A stretch of DNA of 59,258 nucleotides, taken from Pseudomonadales bacterium (GTDB lineage: Bacteria; Pseudomonadota; Gammaproteobacteria; Pseudomonadales; Azotimanducaceae). The notes below the pieces were generated by a model. It was not told the DNA's origin. It did no database searches and saw only the letters and a list, made by a program, of their open reading frames with translations. The stretch lies in assembly GCA_016779585.1 (NCBI GenBank), contig JADHNI010000012.1, positions 1 to 59,258 of the forward strand, in the 5' to 3' direction. Position 1 is the stretch's first letter, and each line of letters opens with the position of its first letter. Below, piece after piece: positions 50,434-59,258 of the stretch. Made by a program: the position numbers and the translations under genes.

Positions 50434-50510
50434 CGGGGCGTAGCGCAGTCTGGTAGCGCACCACACTGGGGGTGTGGTGGTCGTAGGTTCAAATCCTGCC
50501 GTCCCGACCA
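50434..50510 (+). tRNA. tRNA-Pro(GGG)
   Basis: A 77-nt cloverleaf with encoded CCA. Acceptor CGGGGCG/CGTCCCG, D arm GCGCAGTCTGGTAGCGC, anticodon stem CCACA/TGTGG around loop CTGGGGG (anticodon GGG), T arm GTAGG-TTCAAAT-CCTGC. The C at position 1 is normal for bacterial tRNA-Pro. Its last 24 nt are repeated at 50558-50581. Confidence 0.97.
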
Positions 50511-50607: not shown

Positions 50608-51525
50608 CTAGCTGGCAATGACTCGGGAAAGCAGTCGTGCTGCACTAAGGTTTGCCAGTTTCAGGCGACGTGAAAGCGAGTGTTTCGAGTAAACATCCAA
50701 CGGCCGGTAAGTGTGTTGGAAGTAGATCTTGTCCGTTTTTGAAGGTCGGTGACCCTTCAATACGAGATCGGCCAAAAAGTTCTTTTGCCATGGCTTCGGT
50801 TGCCCGATCGCATGGGACATGATGAATCCGCCGTCGGGGAAATCCATCTGGCTTTTGTCCGTGATGATCAGCGGGATATCTGTCAATTCTTTCGTGATGT
50901 TCAACAGGTCCTGGTCAAATATGAAGTAAGGATCAGAGCGATCTCCTGCAGAGAAATCTACTGTGCCGAGTTTCGGGATTATCTTGTCTTGTACTTCTTT
51001 CCAGAGCCTGAGAAAACTCAGGTCCTCAACCTTAATCCCAATGAAGCCGCCGTTGACGTAAACAGGATCTTTCGCCCGGCTTTCCATCTTCGGAAAATCT
51101 TCTCTCCAGAGCTGGCGGGTCGGGTCAGTCTCGAGTAATGGTGAGCTGACATCTTCACACAGCGCTACCCCGCTATTAACCCACGATTCGAAGTAGGACC
51201 AACGCGTCTTTACGATAATGTCTGGGTCAAAGTAGTAAAGTCTCTTGGCCTCGGGAAATCGTTCGGCCAGTTTCAATAAGTAATTCGGTTTGTACAGAGT
51301 GAAGTGAACATCGGTTTCCAGCTGTTCCAGGTGAACAGATACAGTATCAACTGAAAACTCGTTCGGATTACCAGTAAGCCTTTCGTGAATCCAGTCTGGG
51401 AGTGTTCCCCGGTACCCCGCAACGAAGGTTCCCGAAAAACCAGCTTTGACTAGCGAGTTAACTAATGCACCGAACCCGGCATGGTAGTCATTCTCGAACA
51501 GCGTGCAGATGATTGAATCAGTCAT
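50608..51525 (-). CDS. Putative glycosyltransferase (GT-A fold, GT8-like)
   Basis: A 305-residue soluble protein. It starts with a short beta strand and ligand loop (SIICTLFENDYHAGFGALVNSL) and has a DxD-like metal motif in RLYYFDPDIIV near residue 98, which fits nucleotide-sugar transferases of the GT8-like kind. YVNGGFIGIK is a further typical segment. Donor and acceptor are unknown. It is divergent from the uxs gene, 95 bp apart, and is the first gene of the polysaccharide locus after tRNA-Pro. Confidence 0.65.
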   Translation of the reverse strand: MTDSIICTLFENDYHAGFGALVNSLVKAGFSGTFVAGYRGTLPDWIHERLTGNPNEFSVDTVSVHLEQLETDVHFTLYKPNYLLKLAERFPEAKRLYYFDPDIIVKTRWSYFESWVNSGVALCEDVSSPLLETDPTRQLWREDFPKMESRAKDPVYVNGGFIGIKVEDLSFLRLWKEVQDKIIPKLGTVDFSAGDRSDPYFIFDQDLLNITKELTDIPLIITDKSQMDFPDGGFIMSHAIGQPKPWQKNFLADLVLKGHRPSKTDKIYFQHTYRPLDVYSKHSLSRRLKLANLSAARLLSRVIAS

Positions 51526-51620: not shown

Positions 51621-52589
51621 ATGTTTCGTCATCTCAACAAGAGCATATTGGTAACGGGAGGTGCTGGTTTTCTGGGTTCACACCTATGCGAGCGCCTTAT
51701 TGAGATGGGGCATGACGTTATCTGTGTGGACAATTTCTACACGGGCACCAAGGAAAACGTTGCACACCTCCGCGATCATCCACGCTTTGAATTGATAAGA
51801 CACGATGTCTGTTTTCCGTTGTACATTGAAGTTGAAGAGATTTACAACCTTGCCTGTCCTGCGTCACCGATCCATTACCAGCATGACCCGGTTCAGACCA
51901 CCAAGACGAGCGTCCATGGCGCGATTAACATGTTGGGTCTGGCGAAACGAGTCGGGGCAAAGATCCTGCAGGCCTCAACCAGTGAAGTTTACGGTGATCC
52001 GGAGATTCACCCACAGGATGAGAGTTACTGGGGCAGGGTTAACCCGACAGGCCTCAGGGCCTGCTACGACGAAGGCAAGCGCTGTGCGGAGACACTGTTC
52101 TTTGACTATTACCGCCAGCACGGGTTGAAGATAAAAGTCGCACGGATCTTCAACACCTACGGTCCACGCATGCATCCTAAGGATGGGCGCGTTGTATCCA
52201 ATTTCATCACGCAGGCCCTGAGCGAAGCCCCAGTTACGATGTTTGGTGACGGCACTCAGACTCGATCATTTTGTTACGTGGATGACTTGATTGACGGGCT
52301 GATCCGATTGATGGATTCACCTGATGATGTGATAGGTCCGGTTAACCTCGGTAATCCGGGCGAGTTTACAATGCTGCAACTGGCACAACTGATTTTGGAA
52401 ATGACTGGCTCTCGGTCGGAATTGGTGTTTGAACCTTTGCCCAGCGATGATCCGGTTCAGCGCCAGCCGGATATATCCCTGGCCAGGCAGATGCTGGAAT
52501 GGAGCCCCTCGATTGAACTGGCTGAGGGTCTGGGGTTCACGATCGCATATTTCCGGGAGATGCTGGAAAACCAGGGTTTCGGCAACTAG
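51621..52589 (+). CDS. uxs: UDP-glucuronate decarboxylase-type SDR (UDP-xylose synthase)
   Basis: Extended short-chain dehydrogenase of 322 residues. It has NAD motif [15 protein letters not shown], the [15 protein letters not shown] segment, [17 protein letters not shown], catalytic Tyr/Lys in [34 protein letters not shown], and [15 protein letters not shown]. These segments together are characteristic of UDP-glucuronate decarboxylase, which makes UDP-xylose for cell-surface glycans. No UDP-glucose dehydrogenase (needed for the substrate) is present in the window. It converges on the fkbM-type pseudogene with 9 bp between the stops. Confidence 0.9.
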
Positions 52590-52598
52590 AAGATCTTG

Positions 52599-53306
52599 TT
52601 ACTGGCTTCCAGCAACGAATACATGGTTGCCCGGGGTGATTCCACAACTCAGCTCGTTTTCTCCGAGTTCCCGATACCCTGCATCCAGGTCATCAAAAAA
52701 ACGCGCTACCTGCTCGTAGTGATGCTCCCTGATCTCGATAAGACAGGTTGGTCGGTTCTCCTGAAAAAACTCCCTGGCGCCGTTCAGCATTGAGAGTTCG
52801 TGTCCCTCAACGTCGATCTTGATTAGGGTGCAGCCTCTAAGTTCAAGACTGTCGAGTGTCATGGTCTTCACTCTGTGAGTTTCAAACTCATCCGTTTCCA
52901 GGTCTATGTTGTCTTCCAGTGACGCCCACCCGCTCAGCGATCTCCCCGATTGAACGGGTACTTTCAACACATCTTCCCTCAATGAATCAGATAGGGCGAT
53001 GTGGCGGATTTCGACATTCGGTAGATCTGAATCAGCCAGGCACTTTGTAATTCCGGGGTTGGGTTCAAAAGCAATAACACGATCAAACAGTCCGGATTTC
53101 GCGAACGCGAGCGAATACAGCCCAAGATTTGAACCGACGTCTATTGCCTATGAGCCTGGTTTAGCCAGGCGACAGATTTGCTCGATTTCGGGTTCCCACT
53201 TCAGCAGTTTTACCCGCTTGAAGTATTCGATGCGTAGAAGAAGCCTGGCAGGAACCAGAGGCAGGACACATATATCGATTAAGCGACCGAGTGCGTGTCT
53301 GATCAT
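52599..53306 (-). pseudogene. FkbM family methyltransferase, interrupted by an in-frame TAG
   Basis: Read from ATG 53306, the frame runs 52 codons to a TAG (53150-53148) and continues in the same frame for 182 more codons to the normal TAA. The joined 235-residue product is a complete FkbM SAM methyltransferase: KPGS-stop-AIDVGSNLGLYSLAFAK is motif I, then AFEPNPGI and IKIDVEGHELSMLNGA. Only one codon, between Ser52 and Ala54 of motif I, is replaced. FkbM enzymes O-methylate sugars or other hydroxyls. It could be a recent pseudogene or a sequencing error. Without readthrough, only the C-terminal fragment could be made. Confidence 0.85.
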
Positions 53307-53437
53307 ATTAAGTGTGTTGAGTTTTACTGAGTATCGTTGGAGTCAAAGCTATTGTCTATATCTGCAAGGTTCGAAGGTGTGAGTTCTGGTTATTGTCGTG
53401 TAGCCTTATCCCGTGAATCATTGTCTTAGGTAACGCT

Positions 53438-54714
53438 TTGCTCGCTCGGTTGATAGGCTGGTTTCGGTTGCTTGTGGAAAACTTCGCAAGCCAGGCTATT
53501 GTCCTGGCATTTCGAATGGCAACAGCCATATTGTTGATTCGCTCGCTGAGCGTTGATGACTATGCCCTTGTCACGATCGTGGTGACGGCAACCACCTTTA
53601 TTGTGACTTTCTCAGACCTTGGCGTCACTGAAGTCCTGGGTTACCTGAAGCGCCTCGCTGGCTCGTCCACCAAGAGTTTCGCGTCCAGTGTTTCAGAAGT
53701 CCTGAGACTCCGCACTCGGCTCATGTTTATTGGTGGTTTCCTGTCGCTCGGTTACTGTGCAATTGCACTTACTGCAGGTGACTTTGATGTTGTTGATGCG
53801 GTGGTCTGTTCAGTTATTGCTCTCCCGTCTGCATGGTTTACGATAAACGCAGGAATTCGCGGTTATCCTCTTAAGCTCCAGTCTCGCTTCACAGAACTTT
53901 ACAAGCGTGAGTGTTCTCAGAGCTGCTTCGCTTCCTGATTGTTGCATTACTGCTGTTGGTTTTGGGGTTCGATTCTCCTGTGGTGGCGGTGACTGCGCTC
54001 CTCGTCGGGGCCGTCACGCTCAACTGGCTGTTGATTCGTGAAAATTCCAACGAAGAATTGTTCAGCATAACGGCAGGAGAATCCGAGGACCTCAAGTCGA
54101 GACAGATTATTATTGAGCAGACGAGGTTAGTGATTCCCGGTGCACTTCATTCCGTTGTCCAGGGACCACTGTTGATTGCATTAGCAGGCTACGCTGGCGG
54201 TCAATTGAGTGTTGCGGAAGTGGGGGCCCTGGGAAGAATCAGCATACTCTTCGGTATCCTGACAGGATTTGTTTCAGGCGTGGTGGTGCCGAAGTTTGTT
54301 GCCATTACGGATGAAACGCGATTCAGGCAAAGATACCTTTTGGCACTTTCATTGATGATTGCTCTCAGTGGTTTTCTATTTATGCTGGCGCTTATGTTTG
54401 CGACAGAGATTCTTTTGATTCTGGGTGACAACTACAGAAACCTCGAAGCAGAGCTGGTTATTGCCTCAGTTACCTCGCTGTTTGGGACAATCACTGCTTT
54501 CGGCTATGGCATCAATCGATTGCGAGGCTGGACGCAATATCAGGTCCCGTCGGTGATCATGCTGGTGTTCGTCCAGGTATTGCTCCTCCTTTCCCTGGAG
54601 CTGATCGGTACAAGAGAGGTGTTGCTGTTCGGCATGTTCTCAATGATGGTTGGTATGTCACTGCAGATTGTTTTGAATTGGCGTGGCCTGTACAAGGCTG
54701 GAGGAAACAGCTAG
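53438..54714 (+). pseudogene. Wzx-like polysaccharide flippase, frameshifted
   Basis: Two overlapping frames together make one flippase of about 425 residues. The first (from TTG 53438) encodes four or five membrane helices, ending in ELYKRE before switching to an unrelated tail (CSQSCFAS). The second frame takes over at GTG 53911 with FSELLRFLIVALLLLV and runs to the TAG at 54714, with seven or eight more helices. Adding one G after GAG at 53909-53911 would restore KREVFSELLRF. Oligosaccharide-repeat flippases (MATE/Wzx type) have this length and helix count. The 5' start is uncertain. Confidence 0.75.
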
Positions 54715-55670
54715 TGCCCGGGCAGATTCAGATCGTTGTGCCGGATAAATCGGGCGGTGTTCTGGATTACGCGAGTTGCCTCGTGGATTCATTGCCGTCT
54801 GCGTCGTTGATTAGAGTGGGTAAAGAATCCTGCCAACAATGGGAGGTACCCCAGGGAACAAATGTTTACCTTCAGATGAGCGGCTATGGGTACAGTAAAA
54901 GAGGTGCGCCGCTATGGTTACTGGGCGAAGTATCGAAAAGGCGGTCACGGATGCTTCGTCTTGGGGTTTTCTTTCATGAACTCTATGCAAAAGGAAAACC
55001 CTGGCAATCCTCCTTCTGGGTTTCACCTTTGCAAAAATGGGTGGTCAGCCGGCTCGCTTCGGATGCAGACTTCTGGCTGACTAATCGGGAGGCATCAGCC
55101 GAGTGGTTGAGAGAGCGGGCTCATACAAAAGGCGCTGTCCTTCCGGTGTTCTCGAATGTGGGTGAGATAGCTGAGCAGGTTCCTGATCGGGAAACTGAAG
55201 ATGTCGTCTTCTTCGGAGGCTCGGTAGTCAGGGAATCAACTTACGCACGCATCAAGGATTCTGAATTGGAGAAGATTGCTGCAACGGGTGGAACGATCCA
55301 TGATGTCGGGCCGCCCGTTTCTTTGATGACTGCTGATCGTCTACAGCGCCTCGGAGTCCGTATACATGGCCCACTTCCCGCAAGTGAGGTCAGTGCGATT
55401 ATGGCATCTGTCACCTTTGGTGTGCTTGCCTAGAGGGCTGAAGAACTTGAGAAAAGCAGTATTTTCGCAGCCTACTGTGCGCATGGACTTTGTCCGGTCG
55501 TTATCGGTGAATCCTGCGAGGCTGCTGACCAGCTAAAGGCCGACCGTCACTATCTGACAACTTTATCGAGTCGATCGGATACACGGGAAATCGCAAGCAA
55601 CGCGTGGCAATGGTACCAGTCCCACACCCTGGCGACAGCATCAAGCATCGTTGCAGAGAGGTTCGAGTAG
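54714..55670 (+). pseudogene. Glycosyltransferase (GT4-like), interrupted by an in-frame TAG
   Basis: From GTG 54714, which overlaps the flippase stop, the frame encodes 239 residues to TAG 55431-55433 and continues in the same frame for 78 codons to TAG 55668-55670. The joined 318-residue protein resembles a GT-B glycosyltransferase: an N-terminal half with QIQIVVPDKSGGVLDYASCL, then GVFFHELYAKGKPWQSSFW, and a C-terminal half crossing the stop (VTFGVLA-stop-RAEELEKSSIFAAYCAHGLCPVV). The KSSIFAAYCAHGL segment is the donor-site region, so translation ending at the first stop would be inactive. Confidence 0.75.
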
Positions 55671-55675
55671 GTAAC

Positions 55676-56800
55676 GTGGAATCTCCTGTGCTGGTATCTC
55701 ATCCCGGCCGTCAGCATGTAGGTAAACTGTTGGCAACCTTAAATAACGCGGGGCTGCTTCAGCGTTTTTTTACGGTTGCTGCAAACTATCCATCGCTGAT
55801 CGACCCGAACAAAAAGCTCGCGCTGCCAGAAGTTTCGCGAAACCAAGTTGACCAGTTTCCGTGGTTGGCTTTTTGCCAGTACATCCTTGGTGCGGAGCTC
55901 TATCGGGATGTGTATCGCCGATTTGACTCGGCGGTTTCCCGGCGGCTCGATCGATCCGAACACAGGGTGCTCATCGGGTATGAGAATGCCAATCTCTGTT
56001 CCTTTGAACGAGAGAAGGCGCTGGGAGGAACCACGGTGCTGGATCTCGCGGGTGTACACCATAGCAAGAACATTGAACTCTGGGAGCAGTTTCCGGGTTT
56101 TCGGAATGCTTTTCCCGACAGGCAATACTTTGATCAGATGAACGCATACAAGGCAGAGGCGCTGGAGATGACGGACTACTGTGTGTGTCTTTCAGGGTAT
56201 GCTAAGGAAACATTGTCAAATAGTTCACTTTCGAAGGAGCAGGTGTTTGTATTGCCGCTACCGGTCGATCGAAGTGTTTTCTTTCCGTTATAAAGAGAAA
56301 CGCGAACTGACCATAAACTGCAATTGCTCTACGTCGGTCGGGTTTCAGCCATGAAGGGGCTGCGGGAGTTGCTTGATGTGGTAGGCCGCCTGGAAGGGGA
56401 AGTTGAACTGAAGGTCATCGGGGCAGAGAATCGCGGAAAGCAGTTCGAGGTTGAGTGGCCCTCTAATGCAAAACGCCTTGCCGCGGTGCCGAGGGAAGCC
56501 CTGGTATCCCACTACCGTCAGGCAGATGTCTTTATCAACTTTTCCTACTCTGACTCCTGGGGGCAGACAGTTCTTGAAGCCATGGCATGTGGCACGCCCG
56601 TTATCGTCTCTGACAATACAGGAGCCAAGGATGCGCTCAGGGATGGGGGAGGTGTGGTAGTAAAAACAGGGGACAGTGAAGCACTGGAACACTGCATAGT
56701 TTCCCTTCACCGTGACCGAGAGAAGCTTGCCTCGCTAGCGCAGGAAGCAGGGCGATTTGTCTACGGTCATCTGATACGGCCTGGTTCGGCTGTATCCTGA
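55676..56800 (+). pseudogene. Group 1 glycosyltransferase (GT4), interrupted by in-frame TAA and with an odd C-terminus
   Basis: From about GTG 55676 the frame runs to TAA 56291-56293, then continues in the same frame to TGA 56798-56800. The first part is the acceptor domain (VLVSHPGRQHVGKLLATL, LSGYAKETLSNS, VLPLPVDRSVFFPL). The second is the donor domain (LLYVGRVSAMKGLRELLDVV, VFINFSYSDSWGQTVLEAMA, CGTPVIVSDNTGA) with the expected glutamate. The stop falls exactly in the linker between the two domains. After about residue 355 the sequence (GHLIRPGSAVS) no longer resembles a transferase end and runs into the acyltransferase remnant. Confidence 0.78.
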
Positions 56801-57915
56801 TGATAGGTTCGATTTTTGTCGCGAGCGAAGAAAGCGTTTACAGGATCACGGGAACACTACTGTCCGTTCTGGGTTGTGCGCTCGTTATTCTTTGTGCCGA
56901 TGATAGAACCCTGGCAGGTCGATTCCTTGGGTTGCAGCCATTTGTGGCGATTGGACTCATCAGTTACAGCGCATATCTTTGGCATCAACCGCTATTCGCG
57001 CTGGCGAGGGTGTACCTCGTTGATGCGCCGGGTTTCTGGCTCATGTCAGCGCTCTGCCTGGTCACTTTTTTCCTCTCGTATTTTTCCTCGCGATTTATCG
57101 AGCGACCATTTCGCCAGCGCGAGAAGATGCCCCGGGGAGTTGTTATCGGTTCGACCCTTGCGGGTTCTGTGTTGATGCTGATCCTAGGTGCCTGGTTTCA
57201 TTTCCAGAAGGGGCTGCCAGAGCGCTATTCCATGGAGCTTTTGAATCAATGGCAGGATGTAGACAGTCGGACTTATAACGAACGCGTGTACATGTATCGG
57301 CGAGACGCCTTTGAAGCAAAGGTCAAGTTGAAGCTTCTGATTGTCGGCAACAGCTATGCACGTGACTTTGTTAACGTTATTGTTGAAACGTACCTGTCCG
57401 ATGGATTCGAGCTGATCTACCGAGATGACCTGGCCGAATGTATTGATGTAAGCCAGCCGGGACTGTTCAAAGAAGCTGACGTGATAGTTTTTGCCAGTGG
57501 CTTTCCCGACCCAGACTGTGTGTCGCGGGATGTTTCAGAGGCTGAAACAAACGGAAAACGCCTCTTTTATGTCGGTAGTAAATACTTTGGGGCGAATATG
57601 AACTGGATCATTCGGCTGCCAATGGAAAAACGAGCCAACCTGTGGAACCCGATGCTTGACGAAACCCTGCTGCATGAGGAAGAACTGGTGAAGATGATTC
57701 CTCCTGACAATTACCTGTCCCTGTTAGCCCCTATCGTGAGAGACAACCGGGTACCTGTCACGGATAACAAGGGTTTTCCGCTCACTCTTGATCGGGGGCA
57801 TCTGACGAGATTCGGCGCAGTATTCCTGGGTGAGAAGGCCCTGGTTGGCAGCTCCCTTGGTTTGCTGCTTGATTCAACTCACCGTCCTGCCCATCCGGGT
57901 GAATCGGGCGATTGA
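56800..57915 (+). pseudogene. N-terminally truncated acyltransferase-3/SGNH protein (OafA-like)
   Basis: A 371-residue frame containing only the end of an acyltransferase-3 membrane domain (LQPFVAIGLISYSAYLWHQPLFALARVYL, then two helices and SSRFIERPFRQ) followed by a complete periplasmic SGNH domain (LLIVGNSYARDF with the Ser block, and DRGHLTRFGA with the catalytic Asp/His). The first seven or so helices of the OafA/YrhL-type domain, including its catalytic region, are missing, so sugar O-acetylation by this protein is doubtful. The open frame extends upstream to 56716 inside the preceding glycosyltransferase, which fits a deletion joining two genes near 56760-56800. Confidence 0.7.
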
Positions 57916-57930
57916 TCGGGAGATAGGTAT

Positions 57931-58977
57931 ATGAACTCCGTTTTCGTTGCTCTCGTGGTATCGTTCTTGACCTGTTGTCTCACGATTTTCGTGTTTCAAC
58001 GATTTGCGGAACAACTTGGTCTCGTTGATCACCCCAGGGGTCGAAAACAGCATAAGCACAGCACTGCAGTGGTGGGTGGGCTGGGTATCGTTGCTGGCTT
58101 ACTCGGCATTTATCTCACCCTCCCTGAACTCTTCATGACCCACTGGGTTGTCTTTGCTTCTGTTGTCGTCCTGATGATCGTCGGCATTATTGATGACCTC
58201 AGCCATATCCACAGCGCAGTCCGCATGCTGATCCAGATCGGCGTTGGCTGTGCCATTCACTTCCAGGGCAAACTGCCTTTTCTTTCCGTGGGTGACATCT
58301 GGTTTATCGGGGACCTGGGCCTTGGCCCTTACTCGCTCACATTCACGTGTATTGCCGTGGTGGGCGGTGTCAATGCCATCAACATGATGGATGGCCTGGA
58401 TGGGCTTTGCGGGCTCATGGTGGCAAGCGCGCTGATCTGGCTCTCGATCATGGCCTACGTGGCCGGTCACTCAGATGTTTTCATGATTTCGACCACTCTT
58501 CTGGCCTGTATCGTCGCCTTCCTGCTGTTTAACTATCGCTTTCCGTGGAATGAAAGGGCCAGAGTTTTCCTGGGCGACAGTGGTGCTTACGTGCTTGGTT
58601 TCATGATTGCGGCGCTGTTCCTGATGGCAAGCCAGGGCGTCTACAAGGGTGAAATACAGGTGCTGACACCGGTAACGGCCCTCTGGCTGCTGTTCATTCC
58701 CCTCATCGATATTGCGGGTGTTATCTGGCGTCGCAGCCGGTCGAGTCGCTGGCCAGTGGATGATGACCGGGAACACCTGCACTACATGCTGGTGGATCGA
58801 GGCTACTCGACCGAGCAGGTGGTCAACGCACTGTTCCTGCTTTCCTTTGTGCTTGGCGGTCTGGGAGTCGGGCTGTTTTACGCGGGCGTCAGCGAGAGCT
58901 GGTCCTATGTGGCGTTCATGACCTGCTGCGTGGTTTATTTCCTGATCACCAACCGCATGTCACGAGTTGATGGATAG
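57931..58977 (+). CDS. Polyprenyl-phosphate sugar-1-phosphate transferase (WecA/MraY family)
   Basis: A 348-residue membrane enzyme with about ten helices that starts a lipid-linked glycan by moving a sugar-1-phosphate from UDP to undecaprenyl phosphate. Signatures: the LVDHPRGRKQHKHSTAVVGGLGIV loop, IGIIDDLSHIH-like VGIIDDLSHI with the Asp pair, NAINMMDGLDGL, VFLGDSGAYVLGFMIA, and a cytoplasmic DREHLHYMLVDRG with the HxH-type motif typical of WecA. It is most like WecA (GlcNAc-1-P). Start ATG 57931 lies 15 bp after the acyltransferase stop. Confidence 0.9.
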   Translation: MNSVFVALVVSFLTCCLTIFVFQRFAEQLGLVDHPRGRKQHKHSTAVVGGLGIVAGLLGIYLTLPELFMTHWVVFASVVVLMIVGIIDDLSHIHSAVRMLIQIGVGCAIHFQGKLPFLSVGDIWFIGDLGLGPYSLTFTCIAVVGGVNAINMMDGLDGLCGLMVASALIWLSIMAYVAGHSDVFMISTTLLACIVAFLLFNYRFPWNERARVFLGDSGAYVLGFMIAALFLMASQGVYKGEIQVLTPVTALWLLFIPLIDIAGVIWRRSRSSRWPVDDDREHLHYMLVDRGYSTEQVVNALFLLSFVLGGLGVGLFYAGVSESWSYVAFMTCCVVYFLITNRMSRVDG

Positions 58978-59258
58978 GTTCCTGCTGCTGTGTGCTGGTC
59001 TATCTGTTCTGGGTTATTCGCTGACCCATCTCTATCGAGTGATTGCGCTTGCACTTCATATTGTTGATAAACCGAATCACCGAAGTGCGCATAAGGAAGT
59101 CACCCCGACAGGTGCAGGCATTGTGTTTGTGCTGCTTTATTGTCTTGGGCTGTTACTCGCAAATTATTCGGGGGAACTTGGCGCGAATGAGGACGTCTTC
59201 CTGCAGCTGTTGCCGCCGCTATTGCTGGTCGCGCTCGTAGGATTGGTTGACGACTATT
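58970..59258 (+). CDS. Second WecA/MraY-family sugar-1-phosphate transferase (3' part outside window)
   Basis: The frame from ATG 58970 overlaps the preceding gene by 8 nt and runs off the right edge after 96 codons. It shows the family start: a first helix, then VDKPNHRSAHKEVTPTGAGIVFV (the DKP-x-R-S-x-H loop), another helix and the LVGLVDDY aspartate pair at the very end. It resembles WbpL/WbcO-type initiating transferases more than the preceding gene does. Two adjacent genes of this family are unusual. Whether it is intact cannot be seen. Confidence 0.85.
   Translation, partial: MDRFLLLCAGLSVLGYSLTHLYRVIALALHIVDKPNHRSAHKEVTPTGAGIVFVLLYCLGLLLANYSGELGANEDVFLQLLPPLLLVALVGLVDDY

Follow-up and report, generated by a model that had tools for sequence, protein, structure and literature searches.

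The window analysed here is a stretch of 59,258 bases that makes up an entire contig (C93) of the draft genome of an uncultured bacterium (3.49 Mb, 130 contigs, 94.6% complete). The first 50 kb carry housekeeping genes; going by their Pfam domains, these include gyrA, rpsA, uvrB, thrS and pheST. A glycan locus starts after tRNA-Pro and then runs off the contig end. Since the window is an entire contig, this locus lies near a contig end, and the island of broken genes within it is less than 7 kb from that end. The features of the locus are listed in Table 1.

Table 1. Features of the glycan locus, with positions in the window
Feature	Position	Strand	Remark
tRNA-Pro	50434..50510	+	Found by ARAGORN; just upstream of the glycan locus
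Unclassified protein gene, intact, perhaps glycan-related	50608..51525	-	42% identity to a glycan-locus gene of genome G209
uxs-like nucleotide-sugar epimerase/dehydratase family gene, intact, conserved left flank	51621..52589	+	
fkbM-family methyltransferase pseudogene	52599..53306	-	One in-frame TAG, 53148-53150, residue 53 of 235
Pseudogene for a polytopic membrane protein; by context flippase-like (wzx-like)	53438..54714	+	One-base frame change, 53911-53936
gtA, probable glycosyltransferase pseudogene	54714..55670	+	TAG at 55431-55433; no profile match above cut-off
gtB, GT4-type glycosyltransferase pseudogene	55676..56800	+	TAA at 56291-56293; 3' end probably clipped
Putative deletion junction, gtB 3' end / acyltransferase 5' end	~56750..56800	+	
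Acyltransferase-3-like gene without its 5' part	56800..57915	+	Pfam match below cut-off
wecA-like initiating transferase gene, intact, conserved right flank	57931..58977	+	Pfam Glycos_transf_4 above cut-off
Second glycosyltransferase-4-like gene	58967..59258	+	Cut by the contig end

The two flanking genes were compared with G014, a genome of the same genus. The left flanking protein was 76% identical to its G014 counterpart over 317 of 322 residues; we take it to be uxs-like, and the NCBIfam matches shown for it were all below their cut-offs. The right flanking protein was 84% identical over 340 of 348 residues and matched TIGR02380 with an E value of 1.3e-69 and 235 bits, below the cut-off of 326. 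A WecA-kind initiating transferase is present at the locus. The intact minus-strand gene next to tRNA-Pro had no Pfam, NCBIfam or PHROG match; its product belongs to an unclassified family and may be a glycosyltransferase. Its homologue in G209, a genome from another family of the class, sits between homologues of the membrane-protein gene and gtA. Given that position, it is possibly a remnant of the same gene cassette.

The initial annotation had reported lesions in five neighbouring genes within about 5.3 kb, and all five were present in the sequence. The broken frames also read through cleanly as it had described, with no further stop within each gene. All five genes fall between the uxs-like gene and wecA; both flanks are undamaged, and the final 1.3 kb of the contig carries no lesion. 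The description of a single lesion in each gene probably fails for gtB, where a clipped 3' end appears to accompany the TAA.

The fkbM stop lies immediately before the recognizable domain. In the read-through, the match to Pfam FkbM begins at residue 56, three residues past the stop, and does not span it; one weak match below the cut-off (RfbT) does. The next start codon after the stop is 165 nt further on, inside the domain, and the 3' open reading frame alone matches the FkbM profile only from position 66. The gene was judged broken by domain position only.

The membrane-protein gene has a net loss of one base or a gain of two. Its two pieces align in order along one intact homologue with 25% identity, and the interval of the frame change holds no base run longer than two. 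The read-through shows 10 hydrophobic peaks. Profile searches gave no match and PDB searches no meaningful one, and the gene was absent from 37 other genomes at E 1e-6. Single-sequence structure models reached pLDDT values of 36.1 and, for the 3' piece of the membrane gene, 51.6, which made them unusable.

One intact homologue of gtA aligns with the sequence before and after the TAG; for gtB, two homologues do so around the TAA. The gtB stop (residue 206) lies inside the Pfam match GT4-conflict (residues 202-349) and is the only stop of the island within a Pfam match. Among 274 genomes of the class, the genome itself included, gtB was found in two others (E 1e-20) and gtA in one (E 1e-10). A search of a genome-contig collection for close gtB homologues returned 270 pattern matches, none of which was confirmed; records of the genome itself were possibly left out of that collection. 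Profile and structure searches gave no name for gtA. The earlier labels "wzx" for the membrane gene and "glycosyltransferase" for gtA come from context, position, the hydrophobic peaks and distant homologues in another glycan locus, and neither is backed by a profile above its cut-off.

The acyltransferase match starts at profile position 245 of 326, with a score of 24.4 against a cut-off of 31. The frame encodes 399 residues. In 42 of the 46 other matches (the query excluded, two from the same genome) the open frame is at least 584 residues long; the remaining four are short (397-533 residues), and the best-scoring match is among them. Since the end of gtB and the truncation of the acyltransferase gene meet within about 50 bases, one deletion probably clipped both genes, gtB at its 3' end and the acyltransferase gene in its 5' part. 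Genes that stood between them were perhaps lost in the same deletion. The one tandem array detected (57067-57096) coincides with no lesion.

It is very improbable that the genes are still functional through stop read-through, split proteins or phase variation. The downstream pieces do keep open frames, with possible start codons at 56324 (TTG) and 53911 (GTG). However, a restart in fkbM loses the first part of the domain, and the acyltransferase gene lacks its 5' part. No single suppressor would serve, because TAG, TAA and a frame change all occur. Phase variation was rejected, as no simple repeat or long base run was found at any lesion.

The background of internal stops was investigated in 611 kb of the same genome, the window included. 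A stop was flagged if its frame was open for at least 150 nt on each side and ranked as the best coding frame before and after it, with the next start codon at least 24 nt away. Of the 30 stops flagged, 27 fell in the 552 kb outside the window; the three in the window all belonged to the island. At the latter density 0.26 stops would be expected in 5.3 kb, and the probability of three or more is 0.0024. When eight of the 27 background stops were put to Pfam, a domain spanned the stop in six (DUF1631, alpha/beta hydrolase, LpxR, TonB-dependent receptor, GGDEF and AhpC-TSA); the other 19 looked like gene boundaries on visual inspection. With the six domain-spanned stops as background the probability is 3e-5, in a test that is stricter for the background than for the island, where the stops other than that of gtB were assessed from homologues or position. 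Both values are optimistic, because the region was picked for looking broken. Elsewhere in the genome, genes are also broken or recoded, and the island, with three nonsense codons in 5.3 kb, exceeds this background. In 400 kb of G014 the screen flagged 13 stops, none of which looked like a lesion when judged by eye alone.

The initial annotation had also called the rest of the window intact. For nonsense codons, the only lesions that this screen covers, the statement held, since no other stop in the window was flagged. A stricter score screen had missed the island stops and was replaced by the matched screen; it flagged two stops elsewhere in the window, each with a start codon directly after it. 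Coding-potential segmentation with fixed penalties returned zero events, the island included, and was dropped. Promoter and terminator scans stayed at the level of shuffled sequence.

Several genes outside the window were recorded along the way. Domain-spanned internal stops occur at L025:2355 (DUF1631), L062:4511 (alpha/beta hydrolase), L065:4724 (TonB receptor), L065:17551 (LpxR) and L069:15127 (GGDEF). A redoxin gene of the AhpC-TSA family (L073:8336-8338, contig C36, minus strand) carries an in-frame TGA, presumably at the position of the active-site cysteine, and the genome encodes tRNA-SeC (L098). The redoxin is a possible selenoprotein; the RNA fold downstream of the TGA was no better than that of shuffles (z -0.55). 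A glycosyltransferase-4-like gene at L076:11505-12362 has a frame that stops after 285 residues, with an odd tail, and might be broken too.

The choice between recent decay and poor sequencing had been left open by the initial annotation, and decay is now favoured. An assembly or consensus error, in which few reads or a strain mixture over a variable island gave wrong bases and a chimeric join, is an unlikely explanation. Variable polysaccharide islands recruit few metagenomic reads, so read coverage of the island may be low. The island's place near the end of a window that is a whole contig fits such an error, and the other internal stops of the genome could likewise be errors. However, a method prone to indels should produce more frame shifts, chiefly within base runs, whereas here substitutions lead by three to one. 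Three chance stops would require about 1.5% wrong bases. No lesion is seen in the uxs-like gene, in wecA or in the last 1.3 kb, although at the lesion density of the island this would still have a chance of 0.12. Decay is therefore likelier than poor sequencing, because substitutions dominate, the shift is not in a base run, and the contig end is clean; the damage is also bounded by uxs and wecA. If point changes fell at random, three nonsense codons would correspond to about 76-95 of them in 5.1 kb, or 1.5-1.9% (95% interval 0.3-5.4%). For consensus error this rate would be high, whereas after a period without selection it would be nothing unusual. On these grounds the assembled bases are presumed to be correct.

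The gene content of the segment was compared with that of relatives. G014 gave the best match at the locus, and there uxs and wecA keep their order, with about 15 kb between them. The set of genes between them differs from that of the window, in this one relative only. Among 37 genomes, eight besides the genome itself gave DNA matches to the locus, and these were confined to uxs or wecA. The GC content was 0.512 for positions 52590-57915 and 0.545 for positions 1-50400. GC3 was 0.52-0.58 in six stretches of the broken genes and 0.56-0.66 in seven core genes, so that the ranges touch. The results suggested that the segment is a strain-variable cassette, flanked by conserved genes and probably exchanged horizontally. 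The locus of G209 (L022) shares with the window the order of membrane gene, homologue of the unclassified gene, gtA-like gene and gtB-like gene. It differs in that its frames are open, and the identities are 25-42%. Downstream of its gtB homologue it carries what we read as additional transferase genes and one for a putative polymerase.

A doubtful but credible variant, which overlaps with decay as a sub-case of it, is that horizontal transfer failed: the cassette would have arrived incomplete and never been used, instead of being lost by a lineage that had formerly produced the glycan. The slightly lower GC than in the core genes and the lack of a counterpart in the relatives searched are consistent with it. 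In a survey of 64 genomes, as far as the available part of its text states, the chance of appearing transferred was 2.3 times higher for pseudogenes than for genes (PMC522871). Against this, flanks shared with the G014 cassette fit either history.

The island is thus read as a strain-variable surface-glycan cassette of slightly lower GC that is probably in pseudogene decay. The cassette would comprise fkbM, the flippase-like gene, gtA, gtB and the acyltransferase gene, placed between the uxs-like gene and wecA behind tRNA-Pro. Its function would have been lost and its sequence would be drifting. Drift would account for three nonsense substitutions and one single-base frame change; one deletion would have fused gtB to the acyltransferase gene, perhaps with the loss of intervening genes.

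The genome was also searched for the machinery of polymer synthesis. Wzy_C had no match in this 94.6% complete genome and was found in nine of 14 control genomes. Polysacc_synt and Wzz were likewise without a match, with presence in 13 and eight of the 14 controls, respectively. The single Polysacc_synt_3 match was MurJ-like, as judged from its sequence. No open reading frame for a Wzy polymerase was seen between uxs and wecA. The absence of flippases is soft evidence, because the broken flippase-like gene itself escapes those Pfam models. In the same genome, contig C95 carries nucleotide-sugar genes that we read as manC-, galU- and ugd-like, so the synthesis of a different glycan is possible. 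The loss of a surface glycan proposed in the initial annotation is plausible given the missing Wzy_C, Wzz and Polysacc_synt matches, and a polymer would not be made by this route. The causes proposed with it, namely escape from phages or grazers and host adaptation, found no support here.

Phages and grazers have surface glycans as a first target, and few parts of bacterial genomes vary as much as the cassettes that encode them. Polysaccharide islands are described as variable genome parts in the available portion of PMC2800850. According to that portion, metagenomic islands of Salinibacter ruber hold genes for cell-surface or cell-wall polysaccharides, have low GC and contain many pseudogenes, and the cassette in the window resembles them in these features. 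However, Salinibacter ruber belongs to another phylum and its islands were compared with metagenomic reads, whereas the window is known from assembly alone. The segment is also short with every gene hit, unlike those islands as described.

The O-antigen cluster of Yersinia pestis, whose primary papers are reportedly Skurnik 2000 and Prior 2001, was used as a further comparison. In the accessible text of PMC5589760, several genes of the cluster are reported as inactivated with the cluster retained, as in the window. The same text mentions that certain genes of the cluster are functional in some strains and that some of the mutations may be phase-variable. Many strains have been sequenced in the Yersinia pestis case as given there, whereas the window is one assembly of an uncultured bacterium and offers its genes alone.

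The bacterium might have been caught abandoning a polymeric surface glycan. The variable cassette would then decay as a whole while selection maintains the shared end genes, and the genome would have no Wzy, Wzz or dedicated flippase left besides. This stronger reading is rather improbable. If it were true and fixed in the population, the timing and cause of O-antigen loss could be traced in an environmental lineage. Most likely, the island is a further case of an already known and rather ordinary gene decay, in which a swappable cassette has fallen out of use. Because it is a single assembly without reads, it serves mainly to illustrate a pattern already known. A decaying cassette with intact shared flanks is a modest and usable case for the question of whether loss or replacement comes first.
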